A stretch of DNA of 64,000 nucleotides, taken from positions 186,001 through 250,000 of the forward strand of contig NZ_CAKAKO010000002.1 in NCBI RefSeq assembly GCF_916700565.1. Reading direction: 5' to 3'. The position numbers and the translations under genes were made by a program. This document shows positions 6,007 to 64,000 of the stretch, in pieces. This DNA comes from Xenophilus sp. Marseille-Q4582 (lineage in GTDB: Bacteria > Pseudomonadota > Gammaproteobacteria > Burkholderiales > Burkholderiaceae_C). How positions within the stretch are numbered: the stretch's first letter is position 1; the number at the start of each line of letters is the position of its first letter. A model generated the notes under the pieces. The model was not told where the DNA came from, searched no databases, and saw only the letters and a list, made by a program, of their open reading frames with translations.

Positions 6007-6939
6007 ATGGACTTCCAGCCCATCCTCGACGACATCGCCGACCGCCTCCAGCGCGAGCTGGCCCAGGAGGGCCCGCGCGGCCAGGTGGCGCAGTACATCC
6101 CCGCGCTGGCGCGGGTGGATGCACGCCGCTTCGGCATCGCGCTGCGCTGCGGCGACGGGCAGGAAGCGGTGGCCGGCGACGGCGCGGTGCCTTTCTCGAT
6201 CCAGAGCATTTCCAAGGTGTTCACGCTCACGCTCGCGATGCGCCACCTGCCCGAGCAGCAGCTGTGGGCGCGCATCGGCCGCGAGCCCTCGGGCAACCCC
6301 TTCAATTCGCTGGTGCAGCTGGAGTTCGAGCAGGGCACGCCGCGCAATCCCTTCATCAATGCCGGCGCCATCGCGGTGGCCGACCGCATCGTGGGCCTGT
6401 ACGGCGCCGACGCGCTGCGCGAACTGCGCGGCTTCATGAGCCACCTGGCGGGCGAGCCCATCGGCTACGACGAGGAGGTGGCCGCCTCCGAAGCCGCCAC
6501 GGGTTTTCGCAACCACGCGCTGGCCAACTTCATGAAGAGCTTCGGGCGCATCGACCATGACGTGGCCACGGTCCTGGACTTGTACTTCCACCAGTGCGCG
6601 CTGCGCATGAGCTGCCTGCAGCTGGCGCGCGCGGCCGGCTACCTGTGCCGCGACGGCGCGCACCCGCTGCGGGCCGACACGCCGGTGGTCACCGAGCGCC
6701 AGGCGCGCCGCATCAACGCGCTGATGCTGACCTGCGGCACCTACGACGCGGCCGGCGAGTTCGCCTTCCGCATCGGCCTGCCCTGCAAGAGCGGCGTGGG
6801 CGGCGGCATCGTGGCCGTGGTGCCGGACCGGCTCACGCTGGCCGTGTGGTCGCCCGCGCTCGACGAGACCGGCAACTCGCTGCTGGGCATGAAGGCGCTG
6901 GAGATGTTCACGCAGCGCACGGGGCTGTCGGTGTTCTGA
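6007..6939 (+). CDS. glsA: Glutaminase (family A)
   Basis: This 310-residue enzyme hydrolyses L-glutamine to glutamate and ammonia in the cytosol. It has the usual glutaminase-A length and a beta-lactamase-like fold: the catalytic S-I-S-K motif is at 67-70 (PFSIQSISKVFTL). The family blocks GREPSGNPFNS, NPFINAGAI, YDEEVAASE, FYHQCAL-like (YFHQCALRM) and SGVGGGI are all present. ATG 6007 (MDFQPIL) fits the family start; an in-frame ATG at 5956 would add a non-conserved stretch. It is divergent from the winged-helix regulator, suggesting but not proving control by it. Confidence 0.95.
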   Translation: MDFQPILDDIADRLQRELAQEGPRGQVAQYIPALARVDARRFGIALRCGDGQEAVAGDGAVPFSIQSISKVFTLTLAMRHLPEQQLWARIGREPSGNPFNSLVQLEFEQGTPRNPFINAGAIAVADRIVGLYGADALRELRGFMSHLAGEPIGYDEEVAASEAATGFRNHALANFMKSFGRIDHDVATVLDLYFHQCALRMSCLQLARAAGYLCRDGAHPLRADTPVVTERQARRINALMLTCGTYDAAGEFAFRIGLPCKSGVGGGIVAVVPDRLTLAVWSPALDETGNSLLGMKALEMFTQRTGLSVF

Positions 6940-26395: not shown

Positions 26396-27288
26396 GCGAC
26401 CCCACACCGGCCACGCCCGCCGCCCCGACAGGTCACGCTTGGCCCGCCGTCGCGCTGCCCGGCTCCCAGGTGCGCCGCCTGCGCGCAGCGGCCAACGGGC
26501 GGACCTACCGGATCAGCCTGTGGGTCCCGCCGGGTGAAGCGCCAGCGGGCGGCTTTCCCGCGATCTACGTGCTCGACGCCAATGCGCTGTTCGGCACCTT
26601 CGTCGAAGGCATCCGCCGCTCCAGCCACCGGCCCGACGCCACGGGCGTGGTGCCCACCGCCGTGATCGGCATCGCCCAGGAAGACGCGGACGGCGGCCAG
26701 CCGCTGTACGCCGAAGCCCTGCGCCGCCGCGACTTCACGGCCGGACCGCCCGCCAATGAAGCCCCACCGCCCGCCGGCACCGTCGGCGGCGCATACGCCT
26801 TCCTGTCCTTCATCGCGGATGAGCTGGCGCCCGCGCTGCGCGCCGAACTGCCGCTGGACGGCACCCGCCAGAGCCTGTTCGGCCATTCGCTGGCCGGCCA
26901 GTTCGTGCTGCAGGCCCTGGCCGCGCGCCCCGACGCCTTCCGCCACTGGGCCGCGATCAGCCCCTCGATCTGGTGGGACGAAGCCGACCTGCGCGCCCGC
27001 CTGAGCTCAGCCCTGCCCCACGCCAGCCGCCCGCGCCTGTTCCTGGCCGTGGGCGAATACGAAGGCGAAGTGCCGCCGTGGCAGCGCGCGCAGCCCGGTT
27101 ACGAGCAACTGGTCGCGCGACGCGCCAAACGGCAGATGGTGGCCAGCGCGCAGGGCTTGGCGGCCGAGCTGGGCCCACGCTTCGGCGAGGGCGAATTCAC
27201 CTTCCGCGTGTTCCCGGAAGAAGACCATGCGTCGATCCTGATGATCGCGGCGCAGCGAACATTGCGGTTTATTGGCGCTAACGTTTGA
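26392..27288 (+). CDS. Cytosolic alpha/beta hydrolase, siderophore esterase-like (IroE/Fes type)
   Basis: A 298-residue esterase-family protein without signal peptide: FPAIYVLDANALFGTF, the nucleophile S166 in GHSLAG, SPSIWWDE, and the catalytic histidine in FPEEDHASI. It is the last gene of the siderophore ABC operon, joined by an ATGA overlap. It probably opens the imported ferric-siderophore ester to release iron in the cytosol. It is a paralogue of the lipoprotein esterase upstream, giving one predicted periplasmic and one cytosolic enzyme. Confidence 0.85.
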   Translation: MSDPTPATPAAPTGHAWPAVALPGSQVRRLRAAANGRTYRISLWVPPGEAPAGGFPAIYVLDANALFGTFVEGIRRSSHRPDATGVVPTAVIGIAQEDADGGQPLYAEALRRRDFTAGPPANEAPPPAGTVGGAYAFLSFIADELAPALRAELPLDGTRQSLFGHSLAGQFVLQALAARPDAFRHWAAISPSIWWDEADLRARLSSALPHASRPRLFLAVGEYEGEVPPWQRAQPGYEQLVARRAKRQMVASAQGLAAELGPRFGEGEFTFRVFPEEDHASILMIAAQRTLRFIGANV

Positions 27289-27338
27289 CGGAAAGGCATG
27301 CGCCCGGATTACCGGGGGACGTTCTCTTGATGGAAGAG

Positions 27339-27600
27339 CTAGGCATCAAGTTCTTTTTCGATGAGATCCCATCGCTCCCGGTACTCCAGTACAGGCCAGA
27401 AGTAAGCTGGGGCTTCGGGTGCAACAGCTACGGCACGGACGGTATTGTCTTTGTGCGGCCGATTATTCTTACCGGGGGTGGCGAGCCACTTTTGATGGAA
27501 CGCCGAGACATTCGAAGACATTGCGGCGGAAGGAACGATGAAGTATTCGAATGGCTGGCGAGATCGAGGCGTTTTACGAGCTTTTTGCCTGAAGGCCGAT
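27339..27600 (-). pseudogene. Possible C-terminal gene remnant in an A/T-richer patch
   Basis: The 376-bp gap between the esterase and the response regulator is visibly less GC-rich than its surroundings. Read on the minus strand, it gives a coherent protein-like end (FEYFIVPSAAMSSNV..., then PHKDNTVRAVAV and YRERWDLIEKELDA, then a stop). No start or upstream body exists, and the frame upstream is broken by a stop in the next frame. It looks like the 3' remnant of an acquired gene cut off by deletion. An overlapping plus-strand frame is less protein-like. Low certainty. Confidence 0.35.
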
Positions 27601-60078: not shown

Positions 60079-61509
60079 ATGAATGCGCCCACGCAACTCG
60101 CCCACGTCGCCCCCCAGATCGCCCCGCGCGAGGTGCCCGCGGCGCTCATCACCGCGCTGCAGGCGCGCTTTGGCGCGCAGTGCTCGGTCGCGCTGGCGGT
60201 GCGCGAGCAGCATGGCCGCGACGAGTCCTCGTACACCGAGGTGCCGCCGCCCGCGGCCGTGGTCTTCGCCGAGAGCACGCAGGACGTGGCCGATGCGGTG
60301 AAGCTGGCCGGCGCGCATGACGTGCCCGTGATCCCCTTCGGCGTCGGCTCCTCGCTCGAGGGGCATCTGCTGGCCGTGCAGGGCGGCATCAGCGTCGACG
60401 TCTCGCGCATGAACCGCGTGCTGTCGGTCAATGCGGACGACCTCACGGTCACGGTGCAGCCGGGCGTCACGCGCAAGCAGCTCAACGACGAGATCAAGTC
60501 CACGGGCCTGTTCTTTCCCATCGACCCGGGCGCCGACGCCTCCATCGGCGGCATGACCGCCACGCGCGCCAGCGGCACGAACGCCGTGCGCTACGGCACC
60601 ATGCGCGAGAACGTGCTGGCGCTCGAAGTGGTGACCGCCAGCGGCGAGGTGGTGCGCACCGGCACGCGGGCCAAGAAGTCTTCGGCCGGCTACGACCTCA
60701 CGCGGCTCTTCGTGGGCAGCGAAGGCACGCTGGGCGTGGTGACCGAGATCACGCTGCGCATCTATCCGCTGCCCGAAGCCGTGTCGGCCGCGATCTGTTC
60801 CTTCCCGAGCATCGAGGCCGCCGTGCGCACCACCATCGAGACGATCCAGCTCGGCGTGCCCATCGCGCGCGTGGAGCTGATCGACCACAACACGGTGCGC
60901 ATGGTCAACGCCTACAGCAAGCTGAACCTGCGCGAGGAGCCGATGCTGCTGATGGAGTTCCACGGCTCACCGGCCGGCGTGAAGGAGCAGGCCGAGACGG
61001 TGCAGGAGATCGCCAGCGGCCACGGCGGCAACGCCTTCGAGTGGGCGAGCACACCCGAAGAGCGCACGCGCCTGTGGACGGCGCGGCACAACAGCTACTT
61101 CGCGGCGATTGCCTCACGCCCGGGCTGCCGCGCCATCAGCACCGACACCTGCGTGCCCATCTCGCGCCTGGCCGACTGCCTGCTGGAATCGGTGGCCGAG
61201 GTCGATGCCAGCGGCATCCCCTACTTCCTGGTCGGCCACGTGGGCGACGGCAACTTCCACTTCGGCTACCTGATCGACCCCAACGACCCGGCCGAGCGCG
61301 AGAAGGCCGAGCAACTCAACCACGCGCTGGTGGCGCGCGCCATCGCGCTGGAAGGCACCTGCACCGGCGAGCACGGCGTGGGCCTGCACAAGATGGGCTT
61401 CCTGGTCGACGAGGCCGGCGCGGGCGCCATTGACCTGATGCGCACCCTCAAGCGCGCACTGGATCCGAAGAACATCATGAATCCGGGGAAGATTTTCAGC
61501 TGGGGCTGA
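60079..61509 (+). CDS. FAD-linked D-2-hydroxyacid (D-lactate-type) dehydrogenase
   Basis: A 476-residue flavoprotein of the GlcD/Dld class. The FAD-binding PCMH domain (VIPFGVGSSLEGHLLAVQGGISVDVSRMNRVLSVNADDLTVTVQPGV, IDPGADASIGGMTATRASGTNAVRYGTMRENVL) is followed by the substrate/cap domain with HVGDGNFHFGYLIDP and GTCTGEHGVGLHKMGFL and a C-terminal DPKNIMNPGKIF. It oxidises D-lactate or a similar 2-hydroxyacid and passes electrons to quinone or cytochrome c. The start is ATG 60079 with AGAGAG upstream. Confidence 0.9.
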   Translation: MNAPTQLAHVAPQIAPREVPAALITALQARFGAQCSVALAVREQHGRDESSYTEVPPPAAVVFAESTQDVADAVKLAGAHDVPVIPFGVGSSLEGHLLAVQGGISVDVSRMNRVLSVNADDLTVTVQPGVTRKQLNDEIKSTGLFFPIDPGADASIGGMTATRASGTNAVRYGTMRENVLALEVVTASGEVVRTGTRAKKSSAGYDLTRLFVGSEGTLGVVTEITLRIYPLPEAVSAAICSFPSIEAAVRTTIETIQLGVPIARVELIDHNTVRMVNAYSKLNLREEPMLLMEFHGSPAGVKEQAETVQEIASGHGGNAFEWASTPEERTRLWTARHNSYFAAIASRPGCRAISTDTCVPISRLADCLLESVAEVDASGIPYFLVGHVGDGNFHFGYLIDPNDPAEREKAEQLNHALVARAIALEGTCTGEHGVGLHKMGFLVDEAGAGAIDLMRTLKRALDPKNIMNPGKIFSWG

Positions 61510-61628
61510 AGATAGATGGGCGGCTGGGCGCGCGGGCCGGGTGCGAAGTGACATCGTGCCCACAGCTTCACGGGGCGCGGGCTGCAATCGACCAGAAGCA
61601 GCCCGGCCGCATCATCGGCCAAGCCGTC

Positions 61629-61685
61629 ATTTAACGTTTAAATTCAACGGCGCCCCTGGGCGTCCGCTGGAATGAAGGGTTGGGC
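61629..61685 (-). other. Integron attC site 4
   Basis: 57 bp bounded by ATTTAAC and GTTGGGC, which fit the attC core pattern RYYYAAC...GTTRRRY. The inner part holds the imperfect dyad CAACGGCGCC...GGCGTCCGCTGGA. It closes the last cassette; beyond it the ordinary GC-rich chromosome resumes. Confidence 0.85.
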
Positions 61686-61686
61686 G

Positions 61687-62169
61687 TCACTTCTGACTCG
61701 GCAGGGGGTTCTGGTCTCGATAGCCTGAGACGACACAGTCAGGGAAAAAGCCGTACTTGCCAGCTTTGTATGTAGCCAAGAGTTCGGAGAGAACTGTGAC
61801 GTGCCAAGCCTGTACTCGCGGCCAAATCTCGTGGTCCATCGACCCGACATAACCGAGCAGTTGCGTGCCAGGCCGTTGCGAAGTGATCGACATGTCCGCG
61901 AATTTCAAAGCGTTTGCAATCTGTGGGAGCGGCCCATCGCATCTCACTAAATAGTGGTGATACACGATCTCGAACTGCTGCCTTTGCTCAGCCCGTTCAC
62001 CCTCACTGAGCTTGATGCCTGATTGAGCCTGGAGCACTGTCAGTTCGCTTGCCAAACGACCTGACAAATACCAGACGAATTGGTCGTCGTACGCAAGGTT
62101 GCTGCTTGGCTGCGCCTCGGCACCAAGGCAGATGAAAAAAGAGAAAAATGCAGCGAACCACGGTTGCAT
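61687..62169 (-). CDS. Cassette 4: small secreted hypothetical protein
   Basis: A 160-residue protein. Its signal peptide is MQPWFAAFFSFFICLGAEAQ; the mature part is polar (LAYDDQFVWYLSGRLASELTVLQAQSGIKLSEGERAEQRQQFEIVYHHYLVRCDG). No family recognised. It is the fourth and last gene of the cassette array, starting just inside its cassette (8 bp from attC 3) and stopping directly against attC 4. Base composition is clearly less GC-rich than the chromosomal genes, as expected for acquired cassettes. Confidence 0.75.
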   Translation of the reverse strand: MQPWFAAFFSFFICLGAEAQPSSNLAYDDQFVWYLSGRLASELTVLQAQSGIKLSEGERAEQRQQFEIVYHHYLVRCDGPLPQIANALKFADMSITSQRPGTQLLGYVGSMDHEIWPRVQAWHVTVLSELLATYKAGKYGFFPDCVVSGYRDQNPLPSQK

Positions 62170-62176
62170 GGTTGAC

Positions 62177-62233
62177 GTCCAACGTTCGCGCTCAGCGGGC
62201 GGCGAAGCCGTCCGCTGCAGCAAAGGGTTGAGC
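62177..62233 (-). other. Integron attC site 3
   Basis: 57 bp bounded by GTCCAAC and GTTGAGC. The inner stretch, CGCTCAGCGGGCGGCG...GCCGTCCGCTGCAGC, gives the expected imperfect hairpin with offset arms. Same length as the other three sites. Confidence 0.88.
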
Positions 62234-62260
62234 AGCACGGTACCGGCACTTAGCTCAGGC

Positions 62261-62671
62261 TCATTCATACGCAAACACTTCCTCAATCGCGTAGGCAATG
62301 CCGGCGATGGAGCCTAGATCCACCACAACTGCAGCGACGGCGCGCCAAGCCTGAGCCGAGCCGAATCCGGGATGGACATCAAACTCAATGCGCACATGTC
62401 CTGTCGGATCACAAGTTGACCGAATCACAAGTTCGCCTTCTGCGGATTGCCACTCCTTGACGCCGGACCATGCAGCCTGCGAGTTGGCCAACTCCTTGAA
62501 GTACTTGCCCAACACCGGAGCGAATGGTGGGTTCTCTACAGTAATGCGTGCCAGAAGGCCGAGGCCTTCGAACTCGATAGAGAAGTGGTCGGGCCATTCG
62601 CGTTTTGCGCGATCCGGCACAGATAGTCGAACTGCTGTCTCATTTGGACCGCCGAGTCGGACTGTGGTCAT
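62261..62671 (-). CDS. Cassette 3: DUF6228-like protein
   Basis: A 136-residue soluble protein (DHFSIEFEGLGLLARITVENPPFAPVLGKYFKELANSQAAWSGVKEWQSAEGELVIRSTCDPTGHVRIEFDVHPG). It resembles DUF6228 proteins, small single-domain proteins of unknown function often found in accessory DNA. Start ATG 62671, 7 bp inside the cassette from attC 2; a TTG 12 bp upstream lies within the attC. Third cassette gene. Confidence 0.75.
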   Translation of the reverse strand: MTTVRLGGPNETAVRLSVPDRAKREWPDHFSIEFEGLGLLARITVENPPFAPVLGKYFKELANSQAAWSGVKEWQSAEGELVIRSTCDPTGHVRIEFDVHPGFGSAQAWRAVAAVVVDLGSIAGIAYAIEEVFAYE

Positions 62672-62677
62672 AGTGCT

Positions 62678-62734
62678 GCTCAACGATTTAGCTCAGCCGG
62701 CGGCGCAGCCGTCCGTTGGAGCGTATTGTTAGAC
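62678..62734 (-). other. Integron attC site 2
   Basis: 57 bp bounded by GCTCAAC and GTTAGAC, with the typical inner dyad TTAGCTCAGCCGGCGGCG...GCAGCCGTCCGTTGGAGC. This is the most canonical attC of the four. The stop codon of the cassette 2 gene lies inside GTTAGAC. Confidence 0.92.
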
Positions 62735-63190
62735 GCCATAGTGCCGCCGCGTTAGGTTAGTGCCATGGGCGGCAAGCAAAACGCAGCCGAGTCCGACGCC
62801 GACACAACCAAAAACGAAGGCTGCCGCGGCGTCGCCCCAGCGTGACGGCGAGCCGGTAGGGCGATTGATCGACGGCCGAGCTGGCAAGTAGCTCACCTGA
62901 ATTAGGCCGCCCACTCGCATTTCGTCCCAGTGCTTTTGCGAAATGCTGGACCATAGGTCGGCCCGCCCGAACGGGTCGTCGTGCGTATAGCTACTCCCTT
63001 TTAGCTCAAGCCGGTATTTGATGGAGGGATGACTACTTCGCCCCAACCGGGGCTGCATTTCCGTGACAATCGCATTCGCAACAGCCCCTCGAGTCTCTAG
63101 CGCATGGTTGAAATATGCGTCAGTCACGCCTAGCCCGAGGAGCCCAAAGCTGGAAACAGTCCACAACGTCAGCCAAAGCCGGGGTTTCAT
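62729..63190 (-). CDS. Cassette 2: DUF3592-like membrane protein
   Basis: A 153-residue protein with a membrane helix at each end (LWLTLWTVSSFGLLGLGVTDAYF; AAAAFVFGCVGVGLGCVLLAA). Between them is a beta-rich extracytoplasmic domain (GAVANAIVTEMQPRL..., IKYRLELKGSSYTHDDPFG..., GLIQVSYLPARPSINRP). This is the DUF3592 layout, with its VxVxYxPxxP signature. Function unknown. Second cassette gene; its ATG is 4 bp from attC 1. Confidence 0.78.
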   Translation of the reverse strand: MKPRLWLTLWTVSSFGLLGLGVTDAYFNHALETRGAVANAIVTEMQPRLGRSSHPSIKYRLELKGSSYTHDDPFGRADLWSSISQKHWDEMRVGGLIQVSYLPARPSINRPTGSPSRWGDAAAAFVFGCVGVGLGCVLLAAHGTNLTRRHYGV

Positions 63191-63193
63191 GGC

Positions 63194-63250
63194 GTCTAAC
63201 GTGAAGGTGACCAGACGCCGGAGGCGGTCCGGTTGACCGAAATGTTAGAC
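63194..63250 (-). other. Integron attC site 1
   Basis: 57 bp bounded by GTCTAAC and GTTAGAC. Inner arms GGTGACCAGACGCC and GGTCCGGTTGACC give an imperfect hairpin. The TAA stop of the cassette 1 gene lies within GTTAGAC. Confidence 0.9.
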
Positions 63251-63583
63251 AGTAGCCGCCTGACGTTCCCAGTCATTTTCATCTTTTGAAGATGAGCTTC
63301 TCGAAGTCTTGAAGTCTGTGAGAGCGGCCACTTCATAGCCGGCTTTATACAAGGACAGCGTTTCGTCAAGGATGCGAGAGAGCCCTCGCCGCTCGTCGGC
63401 ACCAGGGTTGTCTAATTCCACCAACGCGATCCCCTTTCGCAATTCCGCGAAAGCTCTCTCAAGATTCATCTGCTCAGCTTCGGGCAGATAGTCCTCCTTC
63501 GGAAACCGATCAGGCGCGCGCAAAACCACGTACCCGATGAAATCGTAAAAACTGGAAACGTCACGAACCCAAGCCATCGCCAT
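63245..63583 (-). CDS. Cassette 1: hypothetical protein
   Basis: A 112-residue acidic soluble protein (VRDVSSFYDFIGYVVLRAPDRFPKEDYLPEAEQMNLERAFAELRKGIALVELDNPGADERRGLSRILDETLSLYKAGYEVAALTDF...). No family recognised. It is the first cassette, starting 6 bp from the attI core; a second in-frame ATG is two codons later. First cassettes are usually the best expressed in an integron. It has a clear helical character and no membrane segment. Confidence 0.75.
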   Translation of the reverse strand: MAMAWVRDVSSFYDFIGYVVLRAPDRFPKEDYLPEAEQMNLERAFAELRKGIALVELDNPGADERRGLSRILDETLSLYKAGYEVAALTDFKTSRSSSSKDENDWERQAATV

Positions 63584-63588
63584 CTGCT

Positions 63589-63651
63589 GTTTAACTAGGT
63601 TATAGGGAGACAGCGCTGCTGCGTAACACGGCCGCCTGTCTCCCTAACATC
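63589..63651 (-). other. Integron attI site (attI1-like)
   Basis: Read on the minus strand, the 63 bp begin GATGTTAGGGAG, continue GTGTTACGCAGCAGCGC and TGTCTCCCTATAAC, and end in the core GTTAAAC. This aligns along its whole length with the class 1 site attI1 (GATGTTATGGAG, ATGTTACGCAGCAGGGC, AGTCGCCCTAAAAC, GTTAGGC), with a 2-nt length difference. Both integrase-binding direct repeats (TGTTA...CAG) are recognisable. It sits exactly at the head of the cassette array. Confidence 0.85.
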
Positions 63652-63918
63652 GGCGTCGCGATCAGACTGCAGCCCGCATGAATACTGGCTGGAGTCAAGG
63701 CGAGATGGATATTCATCCAGCACTAACACTCCACGAAAAGCGGCTTGCCTGATCGGCCTAACTTTGCCTCACTTTTGACCGTGAACGGCGGGCGGACCAG
63801 CAAGTTTGGGCACTTTTTCTCACGGCTGGGTGAAGCTCGCGAGTGACTGGCGTCGGCCTGCGTTGGCGTCAGCTTCGAGCACAAGGCAGTCTCAACCTCA
63901 CCTCTTCAGCCTCCATGC
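63652..63918. other. Region beside attI where an integrase gene would be expected; none readable
   Basis: In class 1-type integrons the integrase gene starts within ~200 bp of attI and runs away from the cassettes, i.e. on the plus strand here. The only ATG-led plus frame found (MNTGWSQGEMDIHPALTLHEKRLA, from 63679) stops after 24 codons and is not integrase-like. No remnant was recognised. Confidence 0.6.
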
Positions 63919-63921
63919 AAA

Positions 63922-63942
63922 AAGCCCGGCATCGCCGGGCTT
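63922..63942 (-). terminator. Rho-independent terminator, minus strand
   Basis: AAGCCCGGC/GCCGGGCTT form a perfect 9-bp stem with a 3-nt loop. On the minus strand it is followed by TTTTTGC. It fits the end of the partial minus-strand gene that stops at 63978. Confidence 0.85.
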
Positions 63943-63977
63943 GGCTTCATGCGCCACGAAAGAGAGAAAGGCGCGCC

Positions 63978-64000
63978 CTACTTCTTCGTTGCGCGCCGCG
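63978..64000 (-). CDS. 3' end of a minus-strand gene (partial)
   Basis: At the window edge a minus-strand frame ends ...RRATKK-stop. Only seven codons are visible, so the product cannot be named; the end is basic. A strong terminator lies ~36 bp further on in the same direction, which supports a genuine gene end. Confidence 0.45.

Follow-up and report, generated by a model that had tools for sequence, protein, structure and literature searches.

The locus raises the question of how four gene cassettes came to be lined up in a bacterial chromosome in which no integron integrase is recognized. The window, by which is meant the whole stretch of 64,000 nucleotides that was analysed, comprises bases 186001–250000 of contig C2 (1.1 Mb) of a 5.54-Mb genome (G000) in 13 contigs. 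Because attC sites with the signatures of circular cassettes are accompanied by an attI-type head and by no integrase over the cut-off, the array is an integrase-less integron, i.e., a CALIN that kept its attI. Very probably, it is an integron without intI that retained attI, leader, and four cassettes, the integrase gene having been lost or having been absent on arrival. The features of the locus are collected in Table 1.

Table 1. Features of the array and its flanks (positions in the window)
Feature	Positions	Strand	Remarks
Left flanking gene, GlcD-like FAD-linked oxidase	60079..61509	+	matched in 15/15 genus genomes searched
Trailing segment, array end to oxidase stop	61510..61634		unlike the empty sites of G008 and G010
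attC of cassette 4, array end	61629..61685	+ (strand scored by model)	R2 44.1 bits
Cassette 4 (548 bp), ORF 61687–62169, 160 aa	61635..62182	-	no family; signal-peptide-like start (by eye)
attC of cassette 3	62177..62233	+ (strand scored by model)	R2 35.2 bits
Cassette 3 (501 bp), ORF 62261–62671, 136 aa	62183..62683	-	DUF6228 (PF19739)
attC of cassette 2	62678..62734	+ (strand scored by model)	R2 25.0 bits
Cassette 2 (516 bp), ORF 62729–63190, 153 aa	62684..63199	-	hydrophobic segments; weak DUF3592
attC of cassette 1	63194..63250	+ (strand scored by model)	R2 39.4 bits
Cassette 1 (395 bp), ORF 63245–63583, 112 aa	63200..63594	-	no family over cut-off
Putative attI-type recombination site	63591..63653	-	cassettes follow on minus strand; core GTTAAAC at cassette-side end
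Right flank (leader)	63654..63883		common to the integrase-less attI array of sister species G002
Hairpin past end of CsgG-like gene	63919..63942		bounds the empty site of G008 and G010 on the right

The initial annotation had placed four attC sites of 57 bp each at the starts given in Table 1, and all four were recovered both by a motif-plus-folding scan and by the covariance model R2. The scan, which was run over both strands of the whole 64-kb window, returned exactly these four places; as a control, it was applied to 10 Markov-shuffled versions of the window, which yielded 3 hits, and to 200 shuffled versions of the 2.2-kb array, which yielded 19 (approximately 0.1 per shuffle). R2 was derived from 25 attC sites located downstream of attI matches in other genomes, with the window's genome left out, and consists of 19 aligned sites, none from G000, after six near-identical ones were dropped. 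On the window, the four sites scored 25.0–44.1 bits, followed by 17.0 bits at 27275. In the 5.54-Mb genome, for which 150 of 12,510 first-look candidates were scored, E ≤ 1 was reached by these four sites only, and the covariance-model check that had been proposed for them was thereby passed. Furthermore, the outer arm of each attC resembles the start of its own cassette, with 10, 12, 12, and 10 matches over 14 positions for cassettes 1 to 4, respectively, as is expected if each cassette was once a circle with both ends derived from one site. Two weaker sequences were seen elsewhere. One is the R2 match at 27275–27344 (17.0 bits, E = 0.03 in the window), and the other is a solo attC-like sequence at approximately 1491–1546 of locus L005 (G000:C2:932784), which does not reach E ≤ 1 with R2 and lies between a pair of IS3-type transposase genes and a priA-like gene (named by eye).

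Four minus-strand ORFs alternate with the attC sites, as had been described, each with its ATG 9–13 nt inside the cassette. Their stops had been assigned to positions at or within the attC, which holds for cassettes 1 and 2 (inside the site) and for cassette 4 (one base before it), but the stop of cassette 3 lies 27 nt before its attC. The products had all been called uncharacterised; this is correct with regard to function, but the cassette 3 product belongs to a named family, DUF6228 (67 bits, E = 2.4e-18). The cassette 2 product matches DUF3592 at 17.3 bits (E = 0.008), below the cut-off of 25.3. NCBIfam gave nothing above cut-off for the cassette products, the PADLOC defence models gave zero matches for all four, and no resistance gene was recognized among the four cassettes.

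In the initial annotation, the same ORFs without attC boundaries in related genomes had been regarded as evidence against a cassette array. A DNA search of the other 14 genomes of the genus set (15 genomes, window's included), with at most 20 candidates scored per genome, found no match to the cassette genes, only short attC-like or flank matches. Among plasmid records, distant relatives were found for cassette 1 (four records, 37–52% identity) and cassette 3 (two records, 26%), and none for cassettes 2 and 4 at E ≤ 0.01. In five of these six plasmid stretches, the scan detected no attC beside the relatives; its single hit (143 bp) lies 2 kb off, in L245. Genes like those of cassettes 1 and 3 thus also occur outside cassettes, which leaves the four attC sites of the window unaffected.

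The array is headed by a putative attI-type site, which the initial annotation had missed. This site is matched at 70.4 bits (E = 5e-19) by R1, a sequence-only model of 13 attI sites of which the window's own sequence is one training row. A full-length alignment to the Rfam family RF02912 ("putative aminoglycoside riboswitch / attI site") was also obtained, with a score of 17.4 bits (E = 2.8) that remains below the gathering score of 56; at three related loci, the same family gave 30.8 bits for the sister site in L037 and no match at E ≤ 1 for L107 and L190. The 63-bp site is 78% alike over 60 bp to the class 1 attI1 of L087, L089, and L090. The integrases of L087 and L089 are the same as that of G007 over 286 residues, and the latter is identical to an annotated plasmid IntI1. 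Full integrases adjoin similar attI sites in G362, G353, G248, and G232, and the integrases of the first two are 72–73% like IntI1. The attI assignment is thus based mainly on likeness to a locally assembled set that includes the window, together with the sub-threshold Rfam match.

The absence of an integrase had also been overlooked. In the genome, no match to TIGR02249 exceeds the cut-off of 265 bits, and an integron integrase is absent by that measure; the highest score, 81.7 bits, covers 63 model positions and belongs to an open frame of 334 aa that probably encodes a tyrosine recombinase of another kind. The interval from attI to the CsgG-like gene is 324 bp (63654–63977), shorter than an integrase gene, and was therefore counted toward there being no intI beside attI. 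No remains of an intI gene could be recognized beside the window's attI, and the locus therefore does not demonstrate loss in place. The "compact, complete array" described before is indeed a compact four-cassette integron array, but with no integrase over cut-off it is no working integron. With attC-bounded cassettes and, by sequence, an attI head, it lacks intI among the parts of a functional integron; with four attC and no intI over cut-off, it falls into the CALIN class (at least two attC, no integrase); and it has neither the intI1 nor the attI1 of class 1 integrons, the site being 78% alike to the latter over 60 bp.

Integrases over the cut-off were found in 2 of the 15 genus genomes. 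Broken integrases occur beside attI elsewhere in the genus, namely a frame-broken one in G010:C106 and an N-terminal piece in G002:C12. Among 399 genomes drawn from the family, 172 have an integrase over cut-off, and integrons as such are therefore ordinary in this family. A separate case is formed by four sibling species with common flanks at one site (L118, L119, L120, and L041), where just an N-terminal integrase piece remains and the attC content differs.

The right flank, in which intI would be expected, is shared with the sister species G002. It is 77% alike to G002:C13 over 235 columns, or 79% over 301 columns when attI is included. An imperfect dyad at 63705–63720, noted by eye, is taken by us to be LexA-box-like, and a simple scan of 61400–64000 found no sigma-70-like promoter. 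The middle of the flank (63685–63773) is 77% alike over 89 bp to intergenic DNA of Rhizobium plasmids. In the aligned plasmid stretch, attI was not seen, and no integron integrase is annotated in the rhizobial stretches L136, L137, and L138 (L139 carries no annotation there). The interpretation of the flank as the leader of an intI gene was set aside, as its middle part occurs on these plasmids without an annotated integron integrase. In an order-level search with the flank without attI, 2 of 399 genomes matched, namely G000 itself and G127, the latter by 22 bp, and a pattern scan found nothing in viral contigs.

The array had been described as embedded in a catabolic region, which applies to its left side only, with genes for the GlcD-like FAD oxidase, TctC, TetR, and a carboxylesterase. 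The right side carries genes for CsgG-like, DUF4148, ParB, ParA, GidB (rsmG), and GidA (mnmG) proteins, a gene set that usually surrounds a replication origin. The lower GC content noted for the array was borne out (0.566 versus 0.719 for window positions 1–61509), and low GC is usual for cassettes.

Comparison with sister species revealed the locus without the array. In G008 and G010, the oxidase stop is followed by approximately 65 bp and then by the same hairpin, which constitutes an empty site. In the closest relative, G002 (94% in the oxidase), a different stretch of approximately 0.6 kb, with a different ORF and no attC in the scan, occupies the oxidase site. The oxidase gene is matched in 15 of 15 genus genomes and the cassette genes, with at most 20 candidates scored per genome, in 0 of the 14 others, which supports the identification of an integrase-less integron. 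A match of the trailing segment in G011 looked like chance and was rejected. At another locus, G002 carries an insert of approximately 0.9 kb without integrase, containing a single cassette, attI, and the 230-bp right flank also present in the window (77%); the gene next to it was named phosphoenolpyruvate-carboxykinase-like by eye. The corresponding locus of G000 has only 13 bp between the aligned flanks, and the middle of the insert was found at that locus in none of the other 13 genomes among the matches listed. Both inserts, that of G002 as judged by eye, lie between converging genes. Within L037, an intergenic repeat of approximately 90 bp (about 6715–6805) has many copies across the genus genomes among the matches listed.

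On the basis of these features, a possible history of the array can be proposed. An IntI, which could be that of the element itself prior to the loss of intI or one acting in trans, may have inserted circular cassettes successively at attI, and successive insertion would make cassette 4 the oldest and cassette 1 the youngest. The element could then have lost intI, or it could have arrived without it. The present array would be unable to move cassettes by itself and would form a fixed set on the minus strand, read in the direction leading away from attI, its cassettes possibly being transcribed from the leader with its LexA-box-like dyad, as judged by eye. Rearrangement would be expected only upon entry into the cell of an IntI that can act on this attI.

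Related attI heads were then sought across the family. A DNA search with attI and flank matched 23 of 399 genomes. With R1 at E ≤ 1e-4, under strict filters and with scoring of approximately 13 candidates per genome, 63 matches were obtained, distributed over 44 of the 399. The 4 kb on the expected side of each of the 63 loci were searched for an integrase, with three IntI proteins as tblastn queries. The 10 class 1 attI1 sites had a full (4) or partial (6) integrase, and none lacked one; the 53 non-class-1 sites, of which low-scoring matches may be chance, had a full integrase in 8 cases, a partial one in 6, and none in 39. At ≥55 bits, 23 non-class-1 sites in 13 genomes remained, four with full, three with partial, and 16 with no integrase; on the integrase side of each of the 23, 2.1 kb or more of sequence was available. 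The fraction of 16 in 23 is not an unbiased rate, as the window served as the seed of R1, the training rows of R1 include several of the 23, some genomes contribute more than one row (six from G021, three from G232), and the genomes are related to one another. At least one attC was detected within 6 kb by the strict scan at 8 of the 16 integrase-less sites, and one of the 16, in G192, showed a 29-residue C-terminal IntI match in a looser search. Eleven genomes with strong attI sites were checked for an integrase over cut-off anywhere; five have one (G038, G140, G185, G192, and G232) and six do not (G002, G010, G021, G088, G142, and G160).

These heads bear on how intI went missing. As a special case of the integrase-less integron, a unit of attI and cassettes, already without integrase, may have been inserted as a block by a mobiliser and may belong to a dispersed family; this is possible, if somewhat less likely than an even chance would make it. 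At the position expected for intI, G000 and G002:C13 have the same 230-bp non-coding flank, at different loci, and the G002 insert is absent from the matching G000 locus. In G021, a single contig of 5.3 Mb without an integrase over cut-off, R1 gave seven attI matches (six at ≥59.9 bits, one at 27.0) at loci L107, L108, and L190–L194, with two leader families; of the six strong sites, one has a partial integrase beside it and none a full one. Three of them (L190, L191, and L192) share a leader-plus-attI sequence of approximately 284 bp at 93–96%, with unrelated outer sequence, and L190 and L191 share a further 70 bp or so that comprise the last core site and what follows it (88%). The integrase remnants observed in G021 are a C-terminal piece (152.9 bits) and an N-terminal piece, the latter beside one attI. 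Two attI sites in G142 (L104 and L105) have 600 bp in common (99.7%), part of which resembles, by eye, a plasmid replication protein (TrfA). Against block insertion, neither terminal inverted repeats nor a target duplication nor a transposase was seen by eye at the ends of the G002 insert, and the ends of the window insert cannot be located with single-base precision. The same picture could result if whole integrons were acquired repeatedly and then lost intI, and the flank, the middle of which occurs on rhizobial plasmids without attI, may itself be the wandering sequence. The flank common to G000 and G002 at different loci and the G021 repeats nevertheless favour, in part, arrival without an integrase. 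A broader and tentative reading, which we consider unlikely, is that attI, leader, and cassettes form mobile units in Burkholderiales that have no integrase of their own, spread and multiply along chromosomes, and are fed in trans by a visiting or distant IntI. If this were true, one genome could run several capture sites on one resident enzyme or on none.

Alternatively, the cassettes could have been placed in a secondary chromosomal site by an IntI encoded elsewhere, the likeness to attI being due to chance. CALINs away from intI are common in Xanthomonas (PMC12444791). This alternative also agrees with the lack of intI in the genome and with the sub-threshold Rfam match, but the attI-type site is correctly oriented and lies exactly where the array begins, its core coincides with the first cassette boundary, and similar sites adjoin the full integrases of four other genomes, which makes chance likeness improbable. 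An assembly artefact or contamination, to which the low GC of the array relative to its flanks might point, is exceedingly improbable, as the array sits within a 1.1-Mb contig adjoining a genus-conserved oxidase gene and low GC is what cassettes usually have.

Arrays without integrase are already known; what is novel is the reading that attI units lacking an integrase disperse. In open-licence literature, searched by titles and the starts of abstracts, dispersal of integrase-less attI heads was not found among the matches listed, and no integron paper on orphan or multiple attI appeared there, in a search of little power. Class 1 integrons on plasmids with intI1 cut by insertion sequences have likewise kept attI and cassettes and lost intI. 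Unlike those, the present array is chromosomal, with no insertion sequence seen at the junction and no recognized resistance gene.

Among systems described in the literature, the array resembles the inactivated integrons of Xanthomonas, where the integrase was repeatedly inactivated and CALINs lie away from ilvD (PMC12444791), and the intI pseudogenes of an early survey, nearly one third of the intI genes (PMC2426708); in both, the integrase was inactivated in many lineages and cassettes were kept. In Xanthomonas, intI, where kept, is always downstream of ilvD (PMC12444791), whereas the integrase-less attI arrays of the two sister species stand at different sites. Chromosomal class 1 integrons of environmental Betaproteobacteria share with the array a related attI, the host group, and non-resistance chromosomal cassettes (PMC5460862), but the array has no intI and its attI is approximately 78% alike to attI1. 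In public genomes, CALINs (2961) were counted at a similar frequency to complete integrons (2760; PMC9024848). Whether CALINs are decayed integrons or cassettes moved to new places has mostly been assumed. Outside class 1, attI goes undetected by IntegronFinder 2.0 (PMC9024848), and the CALIN class therefore does not record attI heads. The array differs from a CALIN of this definition in its recognizable attI-type head. A recognizable non-class-1 attI would directly mark an attI-headed array as a platform whose enzyme was lost or was never present, and because an attI model finds such heads, two to seven in some genomes, the question of CALIN origin becomes countable.
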